64,000 nucleotides of DNA from the NCBI RefSeq assembly GCF_001592225.1, contig NZ_BCWN01000017.1:1-64000 (forward strand). The letters are read 5' to 3'. A model generated the notes under the pieces. That model made no database searches. It worked only from the letters and a program-made list of their open reading frames with translations, and was not told where the DNA came from. This document shows positions 32,430-40,367 of this stretch, one piece after another. The translations under genes were made by a program, and so were the position numbers. How positions within the stretch are numbered: the stretch's first letter is position 1; each line of letters opens with the position of its first letter. The stretch is from Castellaniella caeni NBRC 101664. Lineage in GTDB: Bacteria; Pseudomonadota; Gammaproteobacteria; Burkholderiales; Burkholderiaceae_B.

Positions 32430-32879
32430 GTGCGGCATTCAAGGTTCAGCGTCAGCATCATTGCACTCGTCCTGTCAGGCGGGATGGCGGCTGCGCAAGA
32501 GCCCGAGGCCCCCAAGGCACCCCCGCCCCTGGATCAGGGCCAGATCGACAGTGACCCGCTGCAGGGGCTGATCCTCAGCCGGACGATGACCGTCCTGGGC
32601 TGGGATTTCTACAAGAACTTCGCCGAAGTCTGGCAAGCGCTCTACCCCGACTCGCGCGACACGATAACGGTGATCGAGCGCCCCACGGCGCAGTTCGGCA
32701 GCGAAATCTGGATCAACTACCTGAACCAGGCCGTGTTTCACACATTTCTGTCGCCCGCCCGTTCGCGGGCGCGGGAAGAAAGCAAGAACGCCGTCGAGGC
32801 CGTCCACAACAACATCGAAGCCATCAATATCCAGCGCCGGTATGCACAGGATGCCGACCTGGGGCCCGAGGAGATGTAA
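32430..32879 (+). CDS. csgE: Curli assembly protein CsgE
   Basis: 149 aa with a signal peptide ending GGMAAAQ. It is the periplasmic adaptor that caps CsgG and guides CsgA. The core DPLQGLILSRTMTVLGWDFY and the IWINYLNQAVFHTFLSPARS segment match CsgE. The GTG start at 32430 is set by an AGGGAG 6-8 bases ahead; an ATG five bases earlier is in another frame. It is the first gene of csgEFG, with csgF starting right after its stop. Confidence 0.9.
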   Translation: MRHSRFSVSIIALVLSGGMAAAQEPEAPKAPPPLDQGQIDSDPLQGLILSRTMTVLGWDFYKNFAEVWQALYPDSRDTITVIERPTAQFGSEIWINYLNQAVFHTFLSPARSRAREESKNAVEAVHNNIEAINIQRRYAQDADLGPEEM

Positions 32880-33341
32880 ATGCGCTTACATATCGCCAGA
32901 TTTCATTCAGGCAATGCGCCGCTCAGGGCATTGCTGGCCGCCGTGGCCACCGGGCCGCTGATGCTGGGCGGCGCCTCGGCCGGGCAACTGACCTACACGC
33001 CGGTGAACCCGTCGTTTGGCGGCAGCCCGCTCAATGGCTCGTACATGCTGCAAAGCGCCCAGGCGCAGAAGCGCTATCCGATGCCAATGGACGATTATGA
33101 CCTCGGCAACGGCAACGTCAAGGTTCTTAATGCCGGGAACTACCCGGTCATTCAGGTGGGCAGCCAAGTCTACATCTATGATGCGGCAAATGGCGGCTGG
33201 GTTCTGTTCGATCCCAACACAGTCGGAGGCGCAGGCACCACCGGTTTGAAGAGCAGCGCGCTGGCGACTGAATCCAGATCCCTTCTGGGAGGCGCACCTG
33301 CCCAGACCGATGGCAAGCTCGACAGCGGGGTGGTGCAATGA
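32880..33341 (+). CDS. csgF: Curli assembly protein CsgF
   Basis: 153 aa secreted accessory protein that plugs CsgG at the cell surface and positions the nucleator. After the signal peptide the mature N terminus reads QLTYTPVNPSFGGSPLNGSY, the CsgG-binding signature of CsgF. The C-terminal half (about 80-153) is less conserved. The ATG abuts the csgE stop and the end overlaps csgG by 4 bases. Confidence 0.93.
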   Translation: MRLHIARFHSGNAPLRALLAAVATGPLMLGGASAGQLTYTPVNPSFGGSPLNGSYMLQSAQAQKRYPMPMDDYDLGNGNVKVLNAGNYPVIQVGSQVYIYDAANGGWVLFDPNTVGGAGTTGLKSSALATESRSLLGGAPAQTDGKLDSGVVQ

Positions 33342-34297
33342 GCGCGCCCAGCATCCCCGATTCGGCACCGACGAGGCAATGGTCGCGGCTTTGCCTGGCG
33401 ATGGCGGCTTCGCTGACACTATCGGCTTGCGCCCTGCAACGCCCCGCCAATGTCTCCAACGAGGCAAAGCTGACGCCACCCACACCATCGACGGTCGATC
33501 TGCTGCAACTGCCTCCACCGCAAAAGAAGATCGTGGCCGCCGTCTACGGTTTTCGCGACGAAACGGGCCAATACAAACCTTCGCCTGACAGTTCATTTTC
33601 AACTGCGGTCACACAAGGCGCCGCCTCGATGCTGATGAAGGCCCTGAAGGACTCCGGCTGGTACATCCCGGTGGAACGCGAGGGGCTGCAATCGTTGCTG
33701 ACTGAGCGACGCGTGCTGCGCGCCGTGGATGAACACCTCAAAAACGGCACCCCGCAAAACACCACGGTGCCCAACCTGCTGCCCGCCAGCATCATCCTGG
33801 AAGGCGGCATCGTGGCCTACGACAGCAACGTGCGCACTGGCGGCCTGGGCGCGCAGTTTCTGGGCATCGGACTCTCAACCCAGTACAGCGTGGATCAGGT
33901 GACCGTGAACCTGCGCGCCGTGGACGTGAACACCGGAGCCATCCTGAACAGCGTCTCGACCACCAAGACCATTTTTTCGCACGAAATCCATCCCAGCTAT
34001 TTCCGCTTCGTCAATTACTACGACCTGCTGGAGATCGAGGGGGGCTACACGCACAACGAACCGGCCCAGCTGGCCGTGAAAGAAGCCATCGATGCCGCTG
34101 TCATGCACCTGACCGTGCAAGGCATCAAGGACAACCAATGGCGCTTGCGCAACCCATCAGACTGGAACAGCCCGCTGATACAGCGTTATCTGGATGCTGA
34201 GAAGGAATACACCGTCACCGTCACCCCGCGTCAGCCCGCCGCGCCAGAACACCCCCCTGCGGCCAGCCCACAAGGCACATCAAGTGCCACGCCCTAG
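33338..34297 (+). CDS. csgG: Curli secretion channel CsgG
   Basis: 319 aa outer-membrane lipoprotein forming the nonameric curli pore. The lipobox LSAC is near residue 31, preceded by a signal peptide with a long polar start. Family segments include KIVAAVYGFRDETGQYKPSP, SMLMKALKDSGWYIPVEREG, LEGGIVAYDSNVRTGGLGAQ and the tail PLIQRYLDAEK. The last 30 residues are a Pro/Ala-rich extension not typical of E. coli CsgG. It overlaps csgF (ATGA). Confidence 0.95.
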   Translation: MSAPSIPDSAPTRQWSRLCLAMAASLTLSACALQRPANVSNEAKLTPPTPSTVDLLQLPPPQKKIVAAVYGFRDETGQYKPSPDSSFSTAVTQGAASMLMKALKDSGWYIPVEREGLQSLLTERRVLRAVDEHLKNGTPQNTTVPNLLPASIILEGGIVAYDSNVRTGGLGAQFLGIGLSTQYSVDQVTVNLRAVDVNTGAILNSVSTTKTIFSHEIHPSYFRFVNYYDLLEIEGGYTHNEPAQLAVKEAIDAAVMHLTVQGIKDNQWRLRNPSDWNSPLIQRYLDAEKEYTVTVTPRQPAAPEHPPAASPQGTSSATP

Positions 34298-34339
34298 GGC
34301 AAACCAGGGCAACGTACGGGAGATACAGGAGGACTCATC

Positions 34340-34885
34340 ATGATCCATCACACATTTTCAGCGACCCGCCTGGGCGGCCGCTCCAGGCGGGTCGGCAGCC
34401 TGCTGGCCGCGCTCTTGCTGACCCCCTTGGTTGGCTACTGCGCCACCCCCGATCTGGCCTCGTTTTCCGAACTGCCGCCCGCCGAGCTGAGCTCGTCCCT
34501 GCAAGCCCGCAGCACACAAACCGGGGCACTGAACACCAGCGATATCCAGCAGACCGGCTCGCGCAGCCAGGGTTCGGTGCATCAGGCAGGCATAGGGAAC
34601 AGCGCCAGCATCTCTCAAGGCGGCGTGGCCAATCAAGCCAGCGTCGTTCAACTGGGCCTCGGCAACCAGGCGGACATCGCCCAATATGGCAGTGGCAATT
34701 ACGCCGAGGCCAACCAGTTTGGCACGGGCAACCAGGCCACCATCGACCAATACACCAGCAACGCCTACGCCAGCGTGAACCAGGCAGGCAACTTCAACCA
34801 GGCCACCGTCAAGCAGACACGACCAGGATTCGCCTTCCCGGTCATCCAGATTGGCGACCACCTGAAGATCACTGTCTATCGCTGA
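34340..34885 (+). CDS. csgB: Curlin-repeat protein, probable nucleator CsgB
   Basis: 181 aa with an N-terminal signal region (hydrophobic at about 19-34) and then curlin half-repeats with an 11-residue period: QAGIGNSASIS, QGGVANQASVV, QLGLGNQADIA, QYGSGNYAEAN, QFGTGNQATID and two more. The tail, HLKITVYR, is basic and lacks repeats, as in the CsgB anchor segment. Position directly before csgA supports a minor, surface-anchored nucleator. The start is set by AGGAGG 6 bases ahead. The first 45 mature residues are not repeat-like. Confidence 0.85.
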   Translation: MIHHTFSATRLGGRSRRVGSLLAALLLTPLVGYCATPDLASFSELPPAELSSSLQARSTQTGALNTSDIQQTGSRSQGSVHQAGIGNSASISQGGVANQASVVQLGLGNQADIAQYGSGNYAEANQFGTGNQATIDQYTSNAYASVNQAGNFNQATVKQTRPGFAFPVIQIGDHLKITVYR

Positions 34886-34898
34886 GGTGGCACGACAT

Positions 34899-34963
34899 CC
34901 ACCAGCCGTCCACTCTTTCCCATACAAAGCCCGGTAACAAGGCCGCTGGGTGGCGTATTTTTT
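34899..34963 (+). terminator. Terminator-like hairpin between csgB and csgA
   Basis: CCACCAGC (34899-34906) can pair with GCTGGGTGG (34945-34953) with one bulge across a long loop, and TATTTTTT follows at 34956-34963. It sits just ahead of csgA and might attenuate read-through or reflect a separate csgA transcript. The loop is long, so confidence is modest. Confidence 0.35.
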
Positions 34964-34997
34964 GTACAGGTCTTGATGCCCTTAGAGGAGTCACACC

Positions 34998-35615
34998 ATG
35001 AAGATTCAACTTTGCGCACTCGCGTCTGGTCTTGCCCTGGCGTTTGCAGGTACTGCCAGCTTCGCGGCAACCGACGGGACAACCGTCCAGGAAGGCTTCG
35101 GCAACGACGCAACCATCACGCAAGCTTACAACGCGAACACAAGCGCACTCATCGACCAACTGGGTGCAATCAACCAAGCGACGACGTCGCAGAATGCCAA
35201 CCTGGGCTCAAAGGCCAAGACGTATCAACGTGGCTTTAACAACAACGCCGACACCACGCAGCGATACACGGTGAGTGCATACTCGGAAATCGTGCAGCAT
35301 GGCGGTTTCAACCAGGCTGACGTCGCACAAAGCAACGGCTACGACCAGTACTCGAAGGTCTACCAGAAAGGAGTCGGCAACTCGGTGGACGTGAGCCAGA
35401 GCTGGAACAGCAATGCCGATTCCGATATCGTGCAGCACGGCTGGTTCAATACGGCCAGCGTTACCCAGACGTCGGGCCGCCACCAAGACGCCGAGGTATA
35501 CCAAGGCGGTATCGCCAACAGTGCGACGATCATGCAGACGGGCTCGTACCTGAACGCCTCGGCCAGCCAGAAGGGCTTCATGAACACCAGCAACATCACC
35601 CAGACCGGCTGGTAA
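34998..35615 (+). CDS. csgA: Major curlin subunit CsgA
   Basis: 205 aa secreted amyloid subunit. A signal peptide ends ASFAA, followed by eight curlin repeats of about 23 residues with the Q-x-G-x2-N-x-A/D-x3-Q pattern (for example VQEGFGNDATITQ, YQRGFNNNADTTQ, VQHGGFNQADVAQ, YQKGVGNSVDVSQ, VQHGWFNTASVTQ). E. coli CsgA has five. Even-numbered central repeats carry VQHG-x-FN and odd ones YQ-x-G, so the repeats alternate. The ribosome-binding site AGAGGAG is strong. A very stable hairpin follows the stop. Codon use is visibly less GC-rich than in the flanking genes. Confidence 0.92.
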   Translation: MKIQLCALASGLALAFAGTASFAATDGTTVQEGFGNDATITQAYNANTSALIDQLGAINQATTSQNANLGSKAKTYQRGFNNNADTTQRYTVSAYSEIVQHGGFNQADVAQSNGYDQYSKVYQKGVGNSVDVSQSWNSNADSDIVQHGWFNTASVTQTSGRHQDAEVYQGGIANSATIMQTGSYLNASASQKGFMNTSNITQTGW

Positions 35616-35638
35616 GTGGCTGCGGCCCCCTAAAGCCC

Positions 35639-35665
35639 CCCGGGAGCGACGTGGTCGCCCCCGGG
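35639..35665 (+). other. Stable RNA hairpin just after csgA
   Basis: CCCGGG (35639-35644), an A/C mismatch and GCGAC (35646-35650) pair with GTCGC (35654-35658) and CCCGGG (35660-35665) around a GTG loop. No T run follows, so it should block 3-prime exonucleases rather than terminate, and could raise csgA mRNA over the downstream gene. Confidence 0.6.
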
Positions 35666-35696
35666 CAGTTTCCGACAGTATCAACCGGAGATCGCA

Positions 35697-36014
35697 ATGA
35701 TGACAGCCGACATCAACCTACAAGTCTGGCTAGACATCATCCCCGGCACCCAGCCCAGCGTGGTGGTTCCGTACGTCAAAAGCCCCACATCAGGCATCGT
35801 GCAGTATCAGCTAAACGCCACGAAGAAAGGACTCAGTGGTACGTCCAGCATCAGCCAGAGCGGCGGCGTCAGGGTGCAGGCCGACCACCCGACCGCTTTG
35901 ACACGCTTTTCCATGTCGCTGGGCGCGCAGGATCAATGCAAGATCGAGCTGACCTTGTTTGCCAACGGCCACGAGACAGGCACATACCAATTCGACTGCC
36001 CCAGACCCCGGTAG
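35697..36014 (+). CDS. csgH: CsgH/CsgC-like curli chaperone
   Basis: 105 aa. The core YQLNATKKGLSGTSSISQSG, then LTRFSMSLG and a C-terminal FANGHETGTYQFDC, resembles CsgH, the small beta-sandwich protein that blocks premature curli amyloid formation and replaces CsgC in some bacteria. Two Cys residues (about 81 and 101) might pair. Two things are odd: no signal peptide is visible, and there is no in-frame start upstream before a stop codon, although CsgC/CsgH act in the periplasm. GGAG precedes the ATG. A terminator follows, closing the csg operon. Confidence 0.72.
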   Translation: MMTADINLQVWLDIIPGTQPSVVVPYVKSPTSGIVQYQLNATKKGLSGTSSISQSGGVRVQADHPTALTRFSMSLGAQDQCKIELTLFANGHETGTYQFDCPRPR

Positions 36015-36037
36015 CGCAGGGGCAGGCATCTGCAAAA

Positions 36038-36060
36038 GAGGCACTGCATGCCTCATTTTT
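36038..36060 (+). terminator. Rho-independent terminator of the csg operon
   Basis: GAGGCA (36038-36043), loop CTGCA and TGCCTC (36049-36054) are followed by ATTTTT; AAAA precedes the stem, so it can act in both directions. It lies 24 bases after the csgH stop and separates curli genes from the polysaccharide genes. Confidence 0.75.
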
Positions 36061-36189
36061 ATACACAGCCGACGTTACGTTTTGCGCAACCTTGGCATAT
36101 TTCGAGCAGCCCGGTGCAATATTTGCCCGGCCGACGCCGGTGAACCGCCCGCAAAATCATGCATCCATTTCGCAAAGGGAGAACGCACG

Positions 36190-37524
36190 ATGACCAGCCG
36201 CCCACTCGCCGGGGCCTGTCTCTGCCTGAGCATCGGCGCCCCTCTCGGCATCGCTGCCGTCTGGTCGGCGGACGCTCTCCTGGGCTTCGCGTTTTTCTAC
36301 CCCTTGCTGATTGCGGTCGTATCGATACTGGGCGGCCTGTATTACTGGTTTCACTGGGAGCGGCACTGGGCCTGGGGGCTGGACGTGCAGCCGCCCGAAC
36401 TCAAGGGCAACCCATTGATCACGATCCTGATCCCCTGCCACAACCAGGCCGAACAGGGGCCGGACACGGTGCTGTCGGCCCTTGACCAGCACTACCTGAA
36501 CATCGAGGTCATCGCCATCGACGACGGTTCGACCGACGGCACCGGACGCCGACTCGATGCGCTGGCGGCCGTGCACGAACGGCTGCGCGTGGTTCACCTG
36601 GACAGGCATCAGGGCAAGGCCATGGCCCTGCGCATGGGCGCACTGGCAGCGCGCAGCGACTATCTGGTGTGCATCGACGGCGATGCGCTGCTGGATCGCA
36701 ACGCGGCCTCGTTTCTGGTGGCGCCGCTGCTGGCGTGCCCGCGGGTCGGGGCCGTGACGGGCAATCCACGCATCCGCACGCGCTCGACCCTGATCGGACG
36801 CATCCAGGTGGGCGAATGCGCGTCCATCGCCGGCCTCATCAAGCGTACGCAGCGGGTATACGGCCAGGTGTTCACCGTCTCGGGCGTGGTGTCCGCCTTT
36901 CGCCGCAGCGCACTCGACCGGGTCGGCTACTGGAGCCTGGACACGGTGGCCGAGGACATCGACATCAGCTGGAAACTGCAGCGCGACCACTGGTCGATCT
37001 TTTACGAACCCCGCGCCCTGTGCTGGATTCCGATGCCCGAGACGATCCGCGGCCTGTGGCGGCAACGTTTGCGCCGAGCCCAGGGCGGGGCCGAAGTCTT
37101 TCTGAGCAACGTACCCGCCATCTGGTCGTGGCGCTACCGGCGCCTGTGGCCCATGGTGCTGGAATACGGCGTGTCCTCGGTCTGGGCCTTCGCGCTGCTG
37201 CTGGCCGTCGTCCTTTGGACGATCGGGCTGTTCACGGCGCTGCCCAGCCGCCTCCACATCGACACGCCGCTGCCCCCGGCATTCACCGGCATGGTGCTGG
37301 TCATGGCCTGCCTGCTGCAATTCGCCCTGAGCATCTTCATCGACCAGCGCTACGAGCACGGCCTGGCGCGTTCGCTCTACTGGGCCGTCTGGTATCCCCT
37401 GGCCTATTGGGTCGTGCACTTGCTGACCACCCTGTGCAGTTTTCCCGCCGTCCTGCTCAAACGATGCCGCCCGAGGGCGCGCCGGGAAAGCCCGGATCGC
37501 GGCATCAAGGCACCCACGTCATGA
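36190..37524 (+). CDS. pgaC: PgaC-type glycosyltransferase family 2 polysaccharide synthase
   Basis: 444 aa inner-membrane processive GT2 enzyme resembling PgaC/HmsR, which polymerises beta-1,6-GlcNAc. Two N-terminal TM helices precede the GT domain: ITILIPCHNQAEQG, AIDDGSTDGTG, CIDGDALLD, and the catalytic-base region VAEDIDISWKLQ. TM helices follow. The acceptor motif expected as QRLRWAQGG reads QRLRRAQGG, so the conserved Trp of QxxRW is Arg. pgaA and pgaB are not adjacent. The ATG at 36190 is set by AGGGAG upstream. It overlaps pgaD by 4 bases. It could make a polymer other than poly-GlcNAc. Confidence 0.85.
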   Translation: MTSRPLAGACLCLSIGAPLGIAAVWSADALLGFAFFYPLLIAVVSILGGLYYWFHWERHWAWGLDVQPPELKGNPLITILIPCHNQAEQGPDTVLSALDQHYLNIEVIAIDDGSTDGTGRRLDALAAVHERLRVVHLDRHQGKAMALRMGALAARSDYLVCIDGDALLDRNAASFLVAPLLACPRVGAVTGNPRIRTRSTLIGRIQVGECASIAGLIKRTQRVYGQVFTVSGVVSAFRRSALDRVGYWSLDTVAEDIDISWKLQRDHWSIFYEPRALCWIPMPETIRGLWRQRLRRAQGGAEVFLSNVPAIWSWRYRRLWPMVLEYGVSSVWAFALLLAVVLWTIGLFTALPSRLHIDTPLPPAFTGMVLVMACLLQFALSIFIDQRYEHGLARSLYWAVWYPLAYWVVHLLTTLCSFPAVLLKRCRPRARRESPDRGIKAPTS

Positions 37525-38036
37525 TCATCATCAAGACCGCGCGCTCGCGTCTGCGGATGGCGCTCGAAGGCTTGCTGACAGCCCTGGTCTGGGGCGCCTG
37601 CCTGTCCCTGTTCAGCGTCGGCATCCGCTCGATCGCACCAGGCACGCTACGCGGCCTGGCAGGCCCCCTGGCCGCGCGCCTGCCGCCGGGCCTGCACACA
37701 TTGCTGCTCTACGCCCTGGTGGCTCTGGGCGTCGGCGTCCTGCTGTTTTCCTGGGCGAGCTACAACGCGTTGCGCTATGGCGGGCTGGATCGCCGCAAAT
37801 CGGCATCAACCCTTACGCGGCAGGCGCTGGCGCAGCGCTTCGGCATCGATGCGGGCCAGCTGGACGCCTTGCGCGACAGCCAGATCGTGCACATTCTTCA
37901 TGACGAGACAGGAAATATCCTGCAACTGCGGGCAAATGACGAAAATTCAAACACAGCAGACCACAACAGGCTTTCGCCGTCCCGATGCGGCGTTTACGAT
38001 ACACATGGAAATCATATAAGTCATTTTTCACAATGA
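37521..38036 (+). CDS. pgaD: PgaD-like auxiliary subunit
   Basis: 171 aa with two membrane helices (about 13-37 and 58-80) followed by the PgaD-like SWASYNALRYGGLDRRK segment and a soluble C-terminal half. PgaD binds PgaC and cyclic-di-GMP jointly and is needed for synthase activity. It is coupled to pgaC by an ATGA overlap. The last 50 residues (after DETGNILQLRAND) are longer than in E. coli PgaD, which is about 137 residues, and are His/Asn/Ser-rich. Confidence 0.8.
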   Translation: MIIIKTARSRLRMALEGLLTALVWGACLSLFSVGIRSIAPGTLRGLAGPLAARLPPGLHTLLLYALVALGVGVLLFSWASYNALRYGGLDRRKSASTLTRQALAQRFGIDAGQLDALRDSQIVHILHDETGNILQLRANDENSNTADHNRLSPSRCGVYDTHGNHISHFSQ

Positions 38037-38068
38037 TTATTTCCATAAACTGATGACATAGTGAACAA

Positions 38069-38098
38069 TTCTGTTTCATACAAGTTCTGTTTCATACA
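38069..38098 (+). repeat. Direct repeat in front of the LuxR-type gene
   Basis: TTCTGTTTCATACA occurs twice, at 38069-38082 and 38085-38098, a 16-base period, ending 21 bases before the regulator's start codon. The region is AT-rich compared with its surroundings. It may be an operator for the regulator itself. Confidence 0.65.
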
Positions 38099-38119
38099 GG
38101 CTTTAAGGAGGTTCCATCA

Positions 38120-39019
38120 ATGGTGACAGTCACCGTGGTAGAGCCCAATGCGCTGCTTCGCTTGGGTATCCTGAATCTTCTGGAGACGCTCGACTGTGAG
38201 ACGATCACAGTCGGCGTGGACTACGTACAGCTCTTTCAGGGCGCGCAGCGGCATCTGGCGGGCACCGATCTCCTGCTGCTGTCCGTGCCGGACGCCTACG
38301 AACGCATGATCGAACTGCTTGCCGCCGCCCAGCAGCACTACGAACCGCGGCGCATCCTGTTCCTCTCGGACACGCACGTCCTGCCCTACTCGCTGCTCAA
38401 GCTGCCCGCTACCCTGGCGGGATACGTCTGCAAACACGCCTCGCAAGACGTGCTCAAGACCTCGGTCATGCTGGTGCTGGCGGGCGGCAAGTGCTTTCCC
38501 GCCCCGGAAACCCTGCAACTGAAAGAGACGGAACCCGGGATCGCGGGCGACGGCCGCGCGCTCAAGCGGCGCTGGTACGAGAAAGACACTACCTTGCCGG
38601 ACACGCGCGATGCGCTACAGCAGCCCGACAACCTGCTGCAGCTGCGCCCCACGGGGCACGCACAGGCGCCCACCCCGGCCCACGCGCCGCGCCCCCCGCT
38701 GGCACAGGCCAAGGGCGCGGCACCCGAAGCCTCTCCCCTGAGCCCCAGGGCCACGGCCCTGGAAGCCGAGCTGCTGGGCTTGACGCCCCGGCAATACGAA
38801 GTGCTGGCCCTGATGGCCAAGGGCTACCCGCTGAAAAAAATCAGCCGCGAACTCAATATTTCGGTGGCCACCGCCAAGACCCACACCGAGGCGCTCTACC
38901 AGCGGCTGTCGGTCAACAACCGCAACGCCGCGGTCTATGCCGCCATCTCACGCGGGGCCACCCTGGGTTGGGCCGGGTCCGCCGTCGAGGCCGCCGGTTC
39001 GCCGCACATCAGTGCCTAG
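38120..39019 (+). CDS. LuxR-family regulator with degenerate receiver domain
   Basis: 299 aa. Residues 1-120 resemble a NarL-type receiver (VTVVEPNALLRLGILNLLET, then GYVCKHASQDVLKTSV with the conserved Lys), but the acidic pair is replaced by EPN and the phospho-acceptor position reads LLLLSVPD, with Ser for Asp. Phosphorylation is therefore unlikely, as in CsgD. A Pro/Ala-rich linker (about 150-215) leads to a LuxR helix-turn-helix, LTPRQYEVLALMAKGYPLKK and ISVATAKTHTEALYQRL. A perfect AAGGAGG precedes the ATG. Location after csg and pgaCD suggests it controls the matrix genes, like CsgD in E. coli; orthology is not shown. Confidence 0.85.
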   Translation: MVTVTVVEPNALLRLGILNLLETLDCETITVGVDYVQLFQGAQRHLAGTDLLLLSVPDAYERMIELLAAAQQHYEPRRILFLSDTHVLPYSLLKLPATLAGYVCKHASQDVLKTSVMLVLAGGKCFPAPETLQLKETEPGIAGDGRALKRRWYEKDTTLPDTRDALQQPDNLLQLRPTGHAQAPTPAHAPRPPLAQAKGAAPEASPLSPRATALEAELLGLTPRQYEVLALMAKGYPLKKISRELNISVATAKTHTEALYQRLSVNNRNAAVYAAISRGATLGWAGSAVEAAGSPHISA

Positions 39020-39032
39020 TGTGCTGTTCGGC

Positions 39033-39755
39033 TCACACGGGCTCGGGAAACGTGGCCAGGCACCACTGGGCAATCGCGGCGGCGGCCTGGCTGGCCACCG
39101 CGGCGGGCCGATACTGCGTCACCGGCATCTTGTGAGCCAAGGCCTCGTGCACGCTTTCGTCCAGTGCCACCGCCTGTGGCACCACCTGCGCCCCATAGCG
39201 AAACCGCCAGTCGAGCACGACGTCGCACGCCAGCTGCCGGGCGCTGTCCAGGCCGTTGACGAGCACGTGCGTGGTCTGCTCCAGGCCGATCTGGGCGAGC
39301 AAGACATGCGCGGCAATGTCGGGGTGGACGACCAGTACGTCCAGCGTGCTGCGAAAGCGCAGGGCAGGCGCCAGGCGATTGGGATATGGCGGACAGTCGA
39401 ACAGCACCCAGTCGTAATCCGCCCCCAGGTCGGGCGCCACCTGCAACCAGAAATCATCTCCCCGCAGCAAGTGGGACACGCCGGAATCTTCGATGGCCTT
39501 GCGCCCGAAGGGCGCCAGCGTGAGGCCCGGGCGAATCTCGCAAGCCTGCTGGCGCCACTCGGCGGCAAAGGCGGAAGACACCCAGCCACGGCCATCGCGG
39601 TGGGGAATGTCGAAGTGCAGCCGCAGCAGGTCGGCGGCATTGAGATCCACCAACAGCACCCGTTGGCCCCGGGCATGCAGGGCATCCCCCAGCATGCCCG
39701 CCACGGTCGTGGTGCCGCCCCCACCCCGCACGCCAGTCAAGGTCACCAGATTCAT
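39033..39755 (-). CDS. bcsQ: BcsQ-like MinD/ParA-family ATPase
   Basis: 240 aa. The N terminus, LVTLTGVRGGGGTTTVAGML, has the same lysine-less deviant P loop (GVRGGxGTTT) as E. coli BcsQ, followed by LLVDLNAADLLRLHFDIPHR matching the BcsQ DNLLRLSF region, and YDWVLFDCPP. BcsQ forms a complex with BcsR, localises cellulose synthesis at the pole and stabilises BcsA. No bcsA, B, Z or C gene is present in this window. It overlaps the bcsR-like gene (ATGA) and converges on the LuxR-type gene 13 bases away. Confidence 0.88.
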   Translation of the reverse strand: MNLVTLTGVRGGGGTTTVAGMLGDALHARGQRVLLVDLNAADLLRLHFDIPHRDGRGWVSSAFAAEWRQQACEIRPGLTLAPFGRKAIEDSGVSHLLRGDDFWLQVAPDLGADYDWVLFDCPPYPNRLAPALRFRSTLDVLVVHPDIAAHVLLAQIGLEQTTHVLVNGLDSARQLACDVVLDWRFRYGAQVVPQAVALDESVHEALAHKMPVTQYRPAAVASQAAAAIAQWCLATFPEPV

Positions 39756-40000
39756 GGCAAGGCCCGGCTGGCGGCTTCGACCGCCGCTTGCGCCCGCTGC
39801 CGCTCCTGCAGTACCCGATCCATCTCCGCCAACAGCGGCCAGCGATCCAGCGCATCCTGCAGCGCCTGGCGGGCGGCGGCATCCAGGCCACCCGCCGCCG
39901 ACGCCCCCGGCGGGACGGGCAGCGACGTGACACGTCCGGATTGATTCTGGTCGTCCTGCGGGTCGTCACCCGGAGGCTGGGAAACCGTCGGGTGTGCCAT
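39752..40000 (-). CDS. bcsR: BcsR/BcsP-like small protein
   Basis: 82 aa from the ATG at 40000. That start is set by AAGGAG 8 bases upstream; longer in-frame versions lack it. The first 40 residues are Pro/Gly/Asp-rich and probably disordered. RWPLLAE at residues 53-59 is the motif I know from the C-terminal end of E. coli BcsR, followed here by a charged helix. It is translationally coupled to bcsQ, as in bcs operons, where BcsR and BcsQ form a heterocomplex. It might instead be named BcsP, the Pro-rich partner seen in betaproteobacteria. Confidence 0.68.
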   Translation of the reverse strand: MAHPTVSQPPGDDPQDDQNQSGRVTSLPVPPGASAAGGLDAAARQALQDALDRWPLLAEMDRVLQERQRAQAAVEAASRALP

Positions 40001-40367
40001 GAATGGGCTCCTTGGTGGCCTGAGACGGCGCCTGGCTGTCGCCGGAGCCCCCACTTGGCACGCAGGCAACGGCCATGCGCCCAGGCCCCATGACTCTTGC
40101 TGATCGAACATCTCACCATCCCCGTAACAGCGCCAGAGTTTTCACAACATTCTGTGTCTGGAAACGATAAGGGTTTCTGTAAAAATCGGTGAGGGATAGA
40201 TGGCTGACCAGCCGTTTGGCCTAAGATCAGCTGTCGGGATGAACCCCGCCGCCGCGAGGCGCGGCGGGCGTGCCAGGATAGCCGCCAGAGGGGCCAGGCA
40301 CGGCGCGATGGCGGCATCCGGGGCGGCCGCGAGACGGCCCGCAAGTGGGCCGCCCCGGCTTGGGTGC
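40001..40367. other. Intergenic region upstream of bcsRQ
   Basis: 367 bases without a credible gene. The left half (40110-40200) is AT-rich and probably carries the bcsRQ promoter on the minus strand. The right half holds two GC-rich stems: CCCGCCGC (40245-40252) with GCGGCGGG (40261-40268), and GGGGCGGCC (40320-40328) with GGCCGCCCC (40348-40356). The latter lies just beyond the enoyl-CoA hydratase stop and lacks a T run. Confidence 0.5.

Follow-up and report, generated by a model that had tools for sequence, protein, structure and literature searches.

Why would a bacterium with no apparent cellulose synthase keep genes for BcsQ and BcsR? In PMC11470070, both proteins are regarded as cellulose-secretion subunits, and BcsQ of Escherichia coli is a SIMIBI ATPase that cellulose secretion cannot do without and that has BcsR as its chaperone. 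We address this question for Castellaniella caeni NBRC 101664 (G000; 3.28 Mb in 60 contigs, 99.95% complete). The window, by which we mean the whole stretch of DNA that was analyzed, is 64,000 nucleotides long (C17:1-64000, NZ_BCWN01000017.1) and lies inside a 77-kb contig. It encodes a BcsR-BcsQ pair together with curli genes, the genes pgaC and pgaD for a synthase of poly-N-acetylglucosamine (PNAG), and a LuxR-type regulator (Table 1). This is a Castellaniella matrix island, and pgaA and pgaB were lost from this copy of it. We are inclined to think that its BcsRQ, derived from a type II cellulose operon, no longer works on cellulose and serves the island's own matrix machinery. More tentatively, we propose that BcsRQ is a transferable ATPase module for positioning matrix machinery, that it has exchanged its original client, cellulose synthase, for the PNAG synthase, for the curli apparatus, or for both, and that BcsR shed the plug that docks on BcsA and kept the part that stabilizes BcsQ.

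The window's BcsQ scores 154.5 bits against TIGR03371, just below the cut-off of 157.85, and the BcsR-like open reading frame scores 23.1 bits (the NCBIfam cut-off is 46). The Pfam model for BcsR has no match anywhere in the genome. An earlier note, made from the DNA letters alone, described this as a BcsR-BcsQ pair without a cellulose synthase, and that description extends to the entire genome: profile search found no BcsB, no BcsA (a search with the CelA model matches PgaC only), and no bcs operon elsewhere. The earlier note reasoned that a complete bcs operon elsewhere without bcsRQ of its own, together with a complete pga operon elsewhere, would make the locus a simple rearrangement. We found neither a bcs operon nor a complete pga set outside the window. 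We also compared nine congeners (G001-G009). BcsA was above the cut-off in just two of these, G001 and G003, and seven of the eight genomes with an orphan BcsQ show no cellulose synthase. The cellulose operon of G001 has its own, different BcsQ (L068).

To place the orphan BcsQ in a wider context, we scored 268 genomes from the family with an orphan-BcsQ profile, with up to 10 candidates per genome. Eight genomes, all of them Castellaniella, had scores of at least 458 bits, and the next best score was 234. All 13 places that scored 150-234 bits adjoin bcsA sequence (in G179, only a 214-residue stretch). In a midpoint-rooted tree of 38 BcsQ proteins (which leaves out L061, L075-L077, the second copy from G009 (L044), and E. 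coli), the eight orphan proteins form one clade (support 100/99), and this clade is on the same side as the 13 proteins from type II operons (the split is supported at 99/97). As judged from these sequences, the orphan BcsRQ descends from a type II (E. coli-like) cellulose operon, bcsRQABEFG. The orphan pair shares with these operons the BcsQ family, the order of bcsR and bcsQ with their overlap, and the WPLLAE segment of BcsR. But in the loci that we read, bcsA, bcsB, bcsE, and bcsG are not beside the orphan pair, which is linked instead to curli and PNAG genes. The orphan BcsQ proteins themselves are well preserved: 28 alignment columns do not vary among the orphan, operonic, and E. coli proteins (a small set), no lineage has changes at deeply invariant positions, and bcsQ has no internal stop codon in any of the eight genomes that carry the orphan form.

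BcsR tells us more about what may have changed. The BcsR of E. coli folds at its N-terminus into a plug (Asp21, Leu25, Phe29, Leu31, Ile34, and Tyr36) that sits in a pocket of BcsA, and its C-terminal helices hold the BcsQ dimer (PMC11470070). The signature of this plug is present in E. coli and at 13 of 13 operonic BcsR loci, versus none of the eight orphan loci (from seven genomes) that have a BcsR. (A strict pattern caught 10 of the 13; the other three, with V or L in place of I, and E. coli were recognized by eye.) All eight of these orphan loci retain both WPLLAE and the 4-nt overlap between bcsR and bcsQ. From its position, we read WPLLAE as belonging to the BcsQ-binding helices. A ninth orphan locus, in G007, is outside this count, as the 120 bp upstream of its bcsQ contain no BcsR motif. 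Because the orphan proteins form a clade of their own, occur mostly in genomes without an above-cut-off BcsA, and are accompanied by a BcsR that is missing the plug, BcsRQ appears to have left cellulose synthesis and to have been recruited elsewhere.

The surroundings of the pair are conserved as well. The earlier note suggested checking the gene order in relatives, as a lack of conservation would argue against a functional unit. The order is conserved: searches with proteins from E. coli and from the window showed that six of the nine congeners (G001, G002, G004, G006, G008, and G009) have the full island, with pgaA and pgaB included: csgE-F-G-B-A-H-pgaA-pgaB-pgaC-pgaD-luxR, followed by convergent bcsQ-bcsR. 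In all six, BcsR motifs lie upstream of bcsQ with the 4-nt overlap. G003 has the csg genes, pgaABCD, and luxR with no bcsRQ there; it has two bcs operons elsewhere, with their own bcsRQ. In G005, the csg genes, pgaA, pgaB, pgaC, and the C-terminus of LuxR match on one stretch that has no bcsQ, and the orphan-BcsQ profile has no match in this genome at 1e-20. In G003, G005, and G006, the genes atpB, echA, and an M61 peptidase gene are neighbors with no island among them. We also noticed that contig C13 of G003 (L057/L092) has a type II bcs operon at a distance of about 3 kb from echA and the M61 gene, the pair next to which the island is found in other species. In G009, second copies of the island's end and of M61 sequence are found on short contigs (L044 on C86 and L096 on C64); the BcsQ from C86 resembles those of G004 and G008 and probably comes from a second Castellaniella that was binned together with G009.

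In G006, the island is not between atpB and echA. Instead, it lies beyond the M61 gene, with csgE about 11.6 kb away. One block, about 12.4 kb long, has its ends about 0.2 kb upstream of bcsR and 0.2-0.3 kb upstream of csgE. Its identity to G002 is 88.7-91.4%, as compared to 72.1-84.7% for the flanks (87.7% for one 130-nt piece at the edge). In gene trees, all 11 island genes of G006 group with those of G002 and G009, and none of three flanking genes does. The island of G006 was apparently transferred as one block, and given the identities and the gene trees, bcsRQ travelled inside it. Among five frames that we scanned beside the block (of 16 frames of at least 180 amino acids in 8.6 kb), there was no transposase or integrase; these five were an FAD oxidoreductase, a GntR regulator, an NAD-binding dehydrogenase, and two frames without a match. 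The island is also a mosaic. Trees for csgF, csgG, csgB, and csgA (window 32880-35615) pair the window with G001, whereas csgE, pgaD, and the concatenated island genes pair it with G002, G006, and G009.

G007, a metagenome-assembled genome (MAG), is arranged differently. Its BcsQ belongs to the orphan clade and is encoded outside an island; on a contig of 6.8 kb, the gene directly follows that for a GGDEF diguanylate cyclase (L049, 3617-6304). There is no luxR, csg, or pga match on this contig, including no luxR in the last 0.5 kb after bcsQ (curli genes elsewhere in G007 were not searched for). This arrangement raises a possible link of the orphan BcsQ to cyclic di-GMP (c-di-GMP). In this genome, which is 92% complete, we found no PgaA barrel, no PgaB, and no above-cut-off PgaC.

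In C. caeni, the PNAG genes of the island seem to be broken. The earlier note had pointed out PgaC and PgaD without the porin PgaA and the deacetylase PgaB. Both are indeed absent: PF21197 (the barrel of PgaA) and PF14883 (PgaB) have no matches in the whole genome, although eight of the nine congeners have them. (A PgaA query has a weak match on G000:C22, with E = 1.6e-5. We rejected this 603-residue frame: by eye it has tetratricopeptide repeats, and the barrel model is silent genome-wide.) Because close relatives carry pgaA and pgaB exactly between csgH and pgaC, the absence is a loss in the lineage of the window. With blastn, the spacer that remains at this site does not match any of four congeners' islands. 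As compared to the pgaABCD operon for PNAG, the window retains PgaC and PgaD, both above their NCBIfam cut-offs, and lacks PgaA, PgaB, and the Trp of the QxxRW motif, which is Arg instead.

The QxxRW motif is important in PgaC, as is known from processive glycosyltransferase family 2 (GT2) synthases generally. It is also described for BcsA (PMC7112194). The window's PgaC has QRLRR where E. coli and six congeners have QRLRW, and W296R remained specific to the window after we added G003 and G005. In the TED motif, Thr is replaced by Ala (T254A). In total, 19 residues (including the Trp of QxxRW) that are invariant in E. coli and eight congeners have changed in the window's PgaC, as compared to 1, 3, 4, and 1 in four other lineages. 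Similarly, PgaD has 12 window-only changes at residues that are common to the seven congeners compared, versus 0-3 in the other lineages. The frame of pgaC is still open. With the Trp of QxxRW and 18 further invariant residues of PgaC changed, PNAG synthesis is probably dead. Taking all of this evidence together, we conclude that the polymer cannot be exported by the usual route in this genome and is probably not made. And because pgaA and pgaB are lost along with active-site residues of PgaC, the window's island probably builds only curli now.

Counts of changes across whole genes seem striking at first sight. pgaC has 57 window-only changes and 20 in the other lineages, as compared to 53 and 118 for the csg genes (p = 2.6e-10, Fisher's exact test), but these counts are confounded by the mosaic trees within the island. 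luxR (24:19, p = 0.004) and pgaD (22:14, p = 0.001) also exceed the csg genes. bcsQ is not clearly above them (21:25, p = 0.08), and three flanking genes are not above them (43:109, p = 0.63). At deeply invariant sites, the M61 peptidase has 13 changes in the window and 3-14 in other lineages.

We also fit a branch codon model to 13 genes from seven genomes (M61 was left out). The ratio of nonsynonymous to synonymous rates (dN/dS) for bcsQ was 0.095 in the background and 0.044 on the window's branch (twice the log-likelihood difference, or 2dL, was 4.39). Both values are far from 1, which indicates that bcsQ is under purifying selection. pgaC was the only gene of the 13 whose ratio was higher on the window's branch than in the background. 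We had considered whole-gene relaxation of selection as proof that PgaC has decayed, but we dropped this argument, as the ratio is not significantly raised and that of pgaD falls. Because this model by itself shows no relaxation, the loss of the pga genes may be recent. For BcsR, the background dN/dS was 0.48 over 72 codons, and the estimate for the window hit a bound and is unusable.

Which machinery might BcsRQ serve? The earlier note proposed recruitment to a PgaCD-type synthase. Its first half, a move away from cellulose, fits the evidence above, but its second half is unlikely for the window's genome, because this genome has lost both PgaA and PgaB, and its PgaC is missing the Trp of QxxRW. 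Yet bcsQ is intact there. Also, G003 and G005 have pga genes without an adjacent BcsRQ, and G007 has the BcsQ without any of the Pga proteins that we looked for. These observations make it rather doubtful that BcsRQ was recruited to PgaCD and still serves it, even though bcsRQ accompanies pgaABCD in all six congeners with complete islands, no synthase other than PgaC is seen in the island, and PgaCD, like BcsA, depends on c-di-GMP (PMC8461298). For the genus, a PgaCD client is possible in the six complete islands; it is unproven because a BcsQ from the same clade lies outside the island in G007, where no Pga was found, and because curli is equally linked. Indeed, csg genes accompany bcsRQ in seven of seven island genomes, and in the window they are intact, with few changes at deeply conserved sites. 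BcsRQ might position or assemble the CsgG/E/F secretion apparatus, or coordinate it with the cell pole. We think this is unlikely, as G003 and G005 have curli genes without an adjacent BcsRQ and no csg gene is on the G007 contig. Furthermore, we know of no cytosolic ATPase partner in curli export.

Two other explanations have less to recommend them. If BcsRQ were a functionless leftover from a type II cellulose operon that has been lost, then its ancestry would be explained, and so would the poor conservation of BcsR outside of WPLLAE (the background dN/dS of 0.48). But leftovers would decay, and bcsQ has no internal stop in eight genomes and a dN/dS below 0.1 in the seven that were modelled; the 4-nt overlap and WPLLAE are kept wherever there is a BcsR; and the pair was carried in the block of G006. 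Given this constraint, the conserved coupling, and the co-transfer, we consider a leftover to be improbable. It is more improbable by far that the absence of pgaA and pgaB is an artefact of assembly or binning. The assembly is a draft in 60 contigs, but the junction is inside a 77-kb contig, the genome is nearly complete, neither gene is on any contig, and the changes in PgaC support the loss independently.

We return to BcsRQ as a module that serves the island's matrix machinery. BcsRQ would be a SIMIBI ATPase that is stabilized by BcsR, as in cellulose secretion, but that no longer docks on BcsA. Most likely it would assist in positioning or assembling the island's matrix machinery, which originally would have been the PNAG synthase, the curli apparatus, or both. 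In the window's genome, BcsRQ would have no client left but curli, unless its target is elsewhere in the cell. The convergent orientation of bcsRQ beside a CsgD-like regulator suggests co-regulation with the island.

Several observations weigh against this proposed function of BcsRQ, for which all of the partners named here are candidates. If the pga loss is recent, then the constraint on bcsQ says little about its partner. The dN/dS of pgaC on the window's branch is not significantly raised (0.068 versus 0.057, 2dL = 0.60), that of pgaD is lower than the background (0.101 versus 0.245), and the changes in PgaC are not significantly more radical than those of other lineages by BLOSUM scores (p = 0.20 and p = 0.18). 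The BcsQ of G007 is outside the island and without an adjacent BcsR motif. BcsA could have been missed in three of the orphan-BcsQ genomes that appear to lack it, as G008, G009, and G007 are 78%, 89%, and 92% complete. Finally, the mosaic islands confound comparisons between lineages.

If our proposal is correct, then "positioning/assembly ATPase" is separable from "cellulose," and these islands offer a natural system for studying BcsRQ's own role. The window's genome, with its broken PNAG branch and a BcsRQ that is kept, would serve as a natural experiment. Among the matches listed by our literature search (most subscription papers lie outside it), no title or opening of an abstract links BcsRQ to pga or curli, or describes such an island in Castellaniella.

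Table 1. Features of the matrix island in the window (positions in the 64,000-nt window).
Feature	Position	Strand	Evidence or remark
csgE, curli assembly factor	32430..32879	+	PF10627, E = 4.6e-32; congeners keep the order
csgF, curli assembly factor	32880..33341	+	PF10614, E = 1.4e-14
csgG, curli secretion channel	33338..34297	+	PF03783, E = 3.1e-70
csgB, curlin minor subunit (nucleator)	34340..34885	+	PF07012, 4 stretches; top NCBIfam match is CsgB, below cut-off
csgA, curlin major subunit	34998..35615	+	PF07012, 4 stretches; top NCBIfam match is CsgA, below cut-off
csgH/csgC-like curlin chaperone	35697..36014	+	NF041112 (CsgH), 53.7 bits (cut-off 35); PF10610 (CsgC), 40.9 bits (cut-off 25)
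Scar at the pgaA/pgaB site of relatives; 175-nt spacer between csgH and pgaC	36015..36189	+	Alignment to congeners
pgaC, PNAG synthase, probably inactive	36190..37524	+	TIGR03937, 553.7 bits (cut-off 422.3); W296R in QxxRW, T254A in TED
pgaD, PNAG synthase subunit, diverged	37521..38036	+	TIGR03940, 71.5 bits (cut-off 31.45)
luxR, CsgD-like regulator; receiver without phospho-acceptor Asp	38120..39019	+	C-terminal GerE; predicted receiver fold
bcsQ, orphan SIMIBI (MinD/ParA-like) ATPase	39033..39755	-	PF06564, E = 1.1e-77, 261 bits; solved E. coli BcsQ, E = 2e-29
bcsR-like partner; RWPLLAE kept, BcsA-docking plug absent; start codon uncertain	39752..40111	-	4-nt overlap with bcsQ

The LuxR-type regulator was thought to have a receiver that cannot be phosphorylated, and the structural prediction agrees. 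Its first 120 residues are predicted to form a (beta-alpha)5 receiver that matches response regulators of the NarL/LuxR type. (The mean predicted local distance difference test score, or pLDDT, is 58.5 for the whole model, with 78-88 in nine of the first 13 ten-residue blocks.) Ser55 lies at the end of strand 3, which, from the fold and from general receiver anatomy, we take to be the position of the phospho-acceptor Asp, and the N-terminal acid pair is Glu-Pro. Ser is found at this position in all eight congeners aligned. The regulator scores just 30.6 bits against the NCBIfam equivalog for CsgD (cut-off 250). We assume that a LuxR helix-turn-helix together with a receiver-like domain without the acceptor Asp is what defines CsgD, and by this architecture the predicted protein is CsgD-like despite failing the equivalog cut-off.

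Matches to Pfam and NCBIfam models bore out the genes that the earlier note named, at the places given there, among them every curli gene in the operon csgEFG-B-A-H. The set for type VIII secretion is complete, with CsgG, CsgE, CsgF, two Curlin_rpt proteins, and a CsgC/H chaperone. CsgG is 82-88% identical to its counterparts in the six congeners with the full island. csgE, csgF, csgG, csgB, and csgH have 0-1 window-only changes at deeply conserved sites (csgG has 1, versus 0-2 in other lineages), and csgA has 6, versus 1-3 in other lineages. Judging from these counts, it is the curli part of the island that remains intact in this genome. The enterobacterial csg operons, as read in E. coli, share these genes (csgE, F, G, B, A, and a CsgC/H chaperone) and a LuxR-type regulator with a receiver-like domain. 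In contrast to the enterobacterial operons, the csg genes of the window form one collinear EFG-B-A-H unit, and the pga genes separate them from the regulator, which stands toward the opposite end of the island. Directly after csgH, at 36038-36054, we noticed a perfect 6-bp hairpin followed by a run of T, which resembles a terminator and could separate pgaCD from the curli transcript; such hairpins are common by chance (9 found versus 6.6 expected in 8.5 kb). Elsewhere in the genome, at G000:C34:9044-16010, two very long frames (1460 and 1270 amino acids) with several GT2 domains each make up a separate glycan locus.

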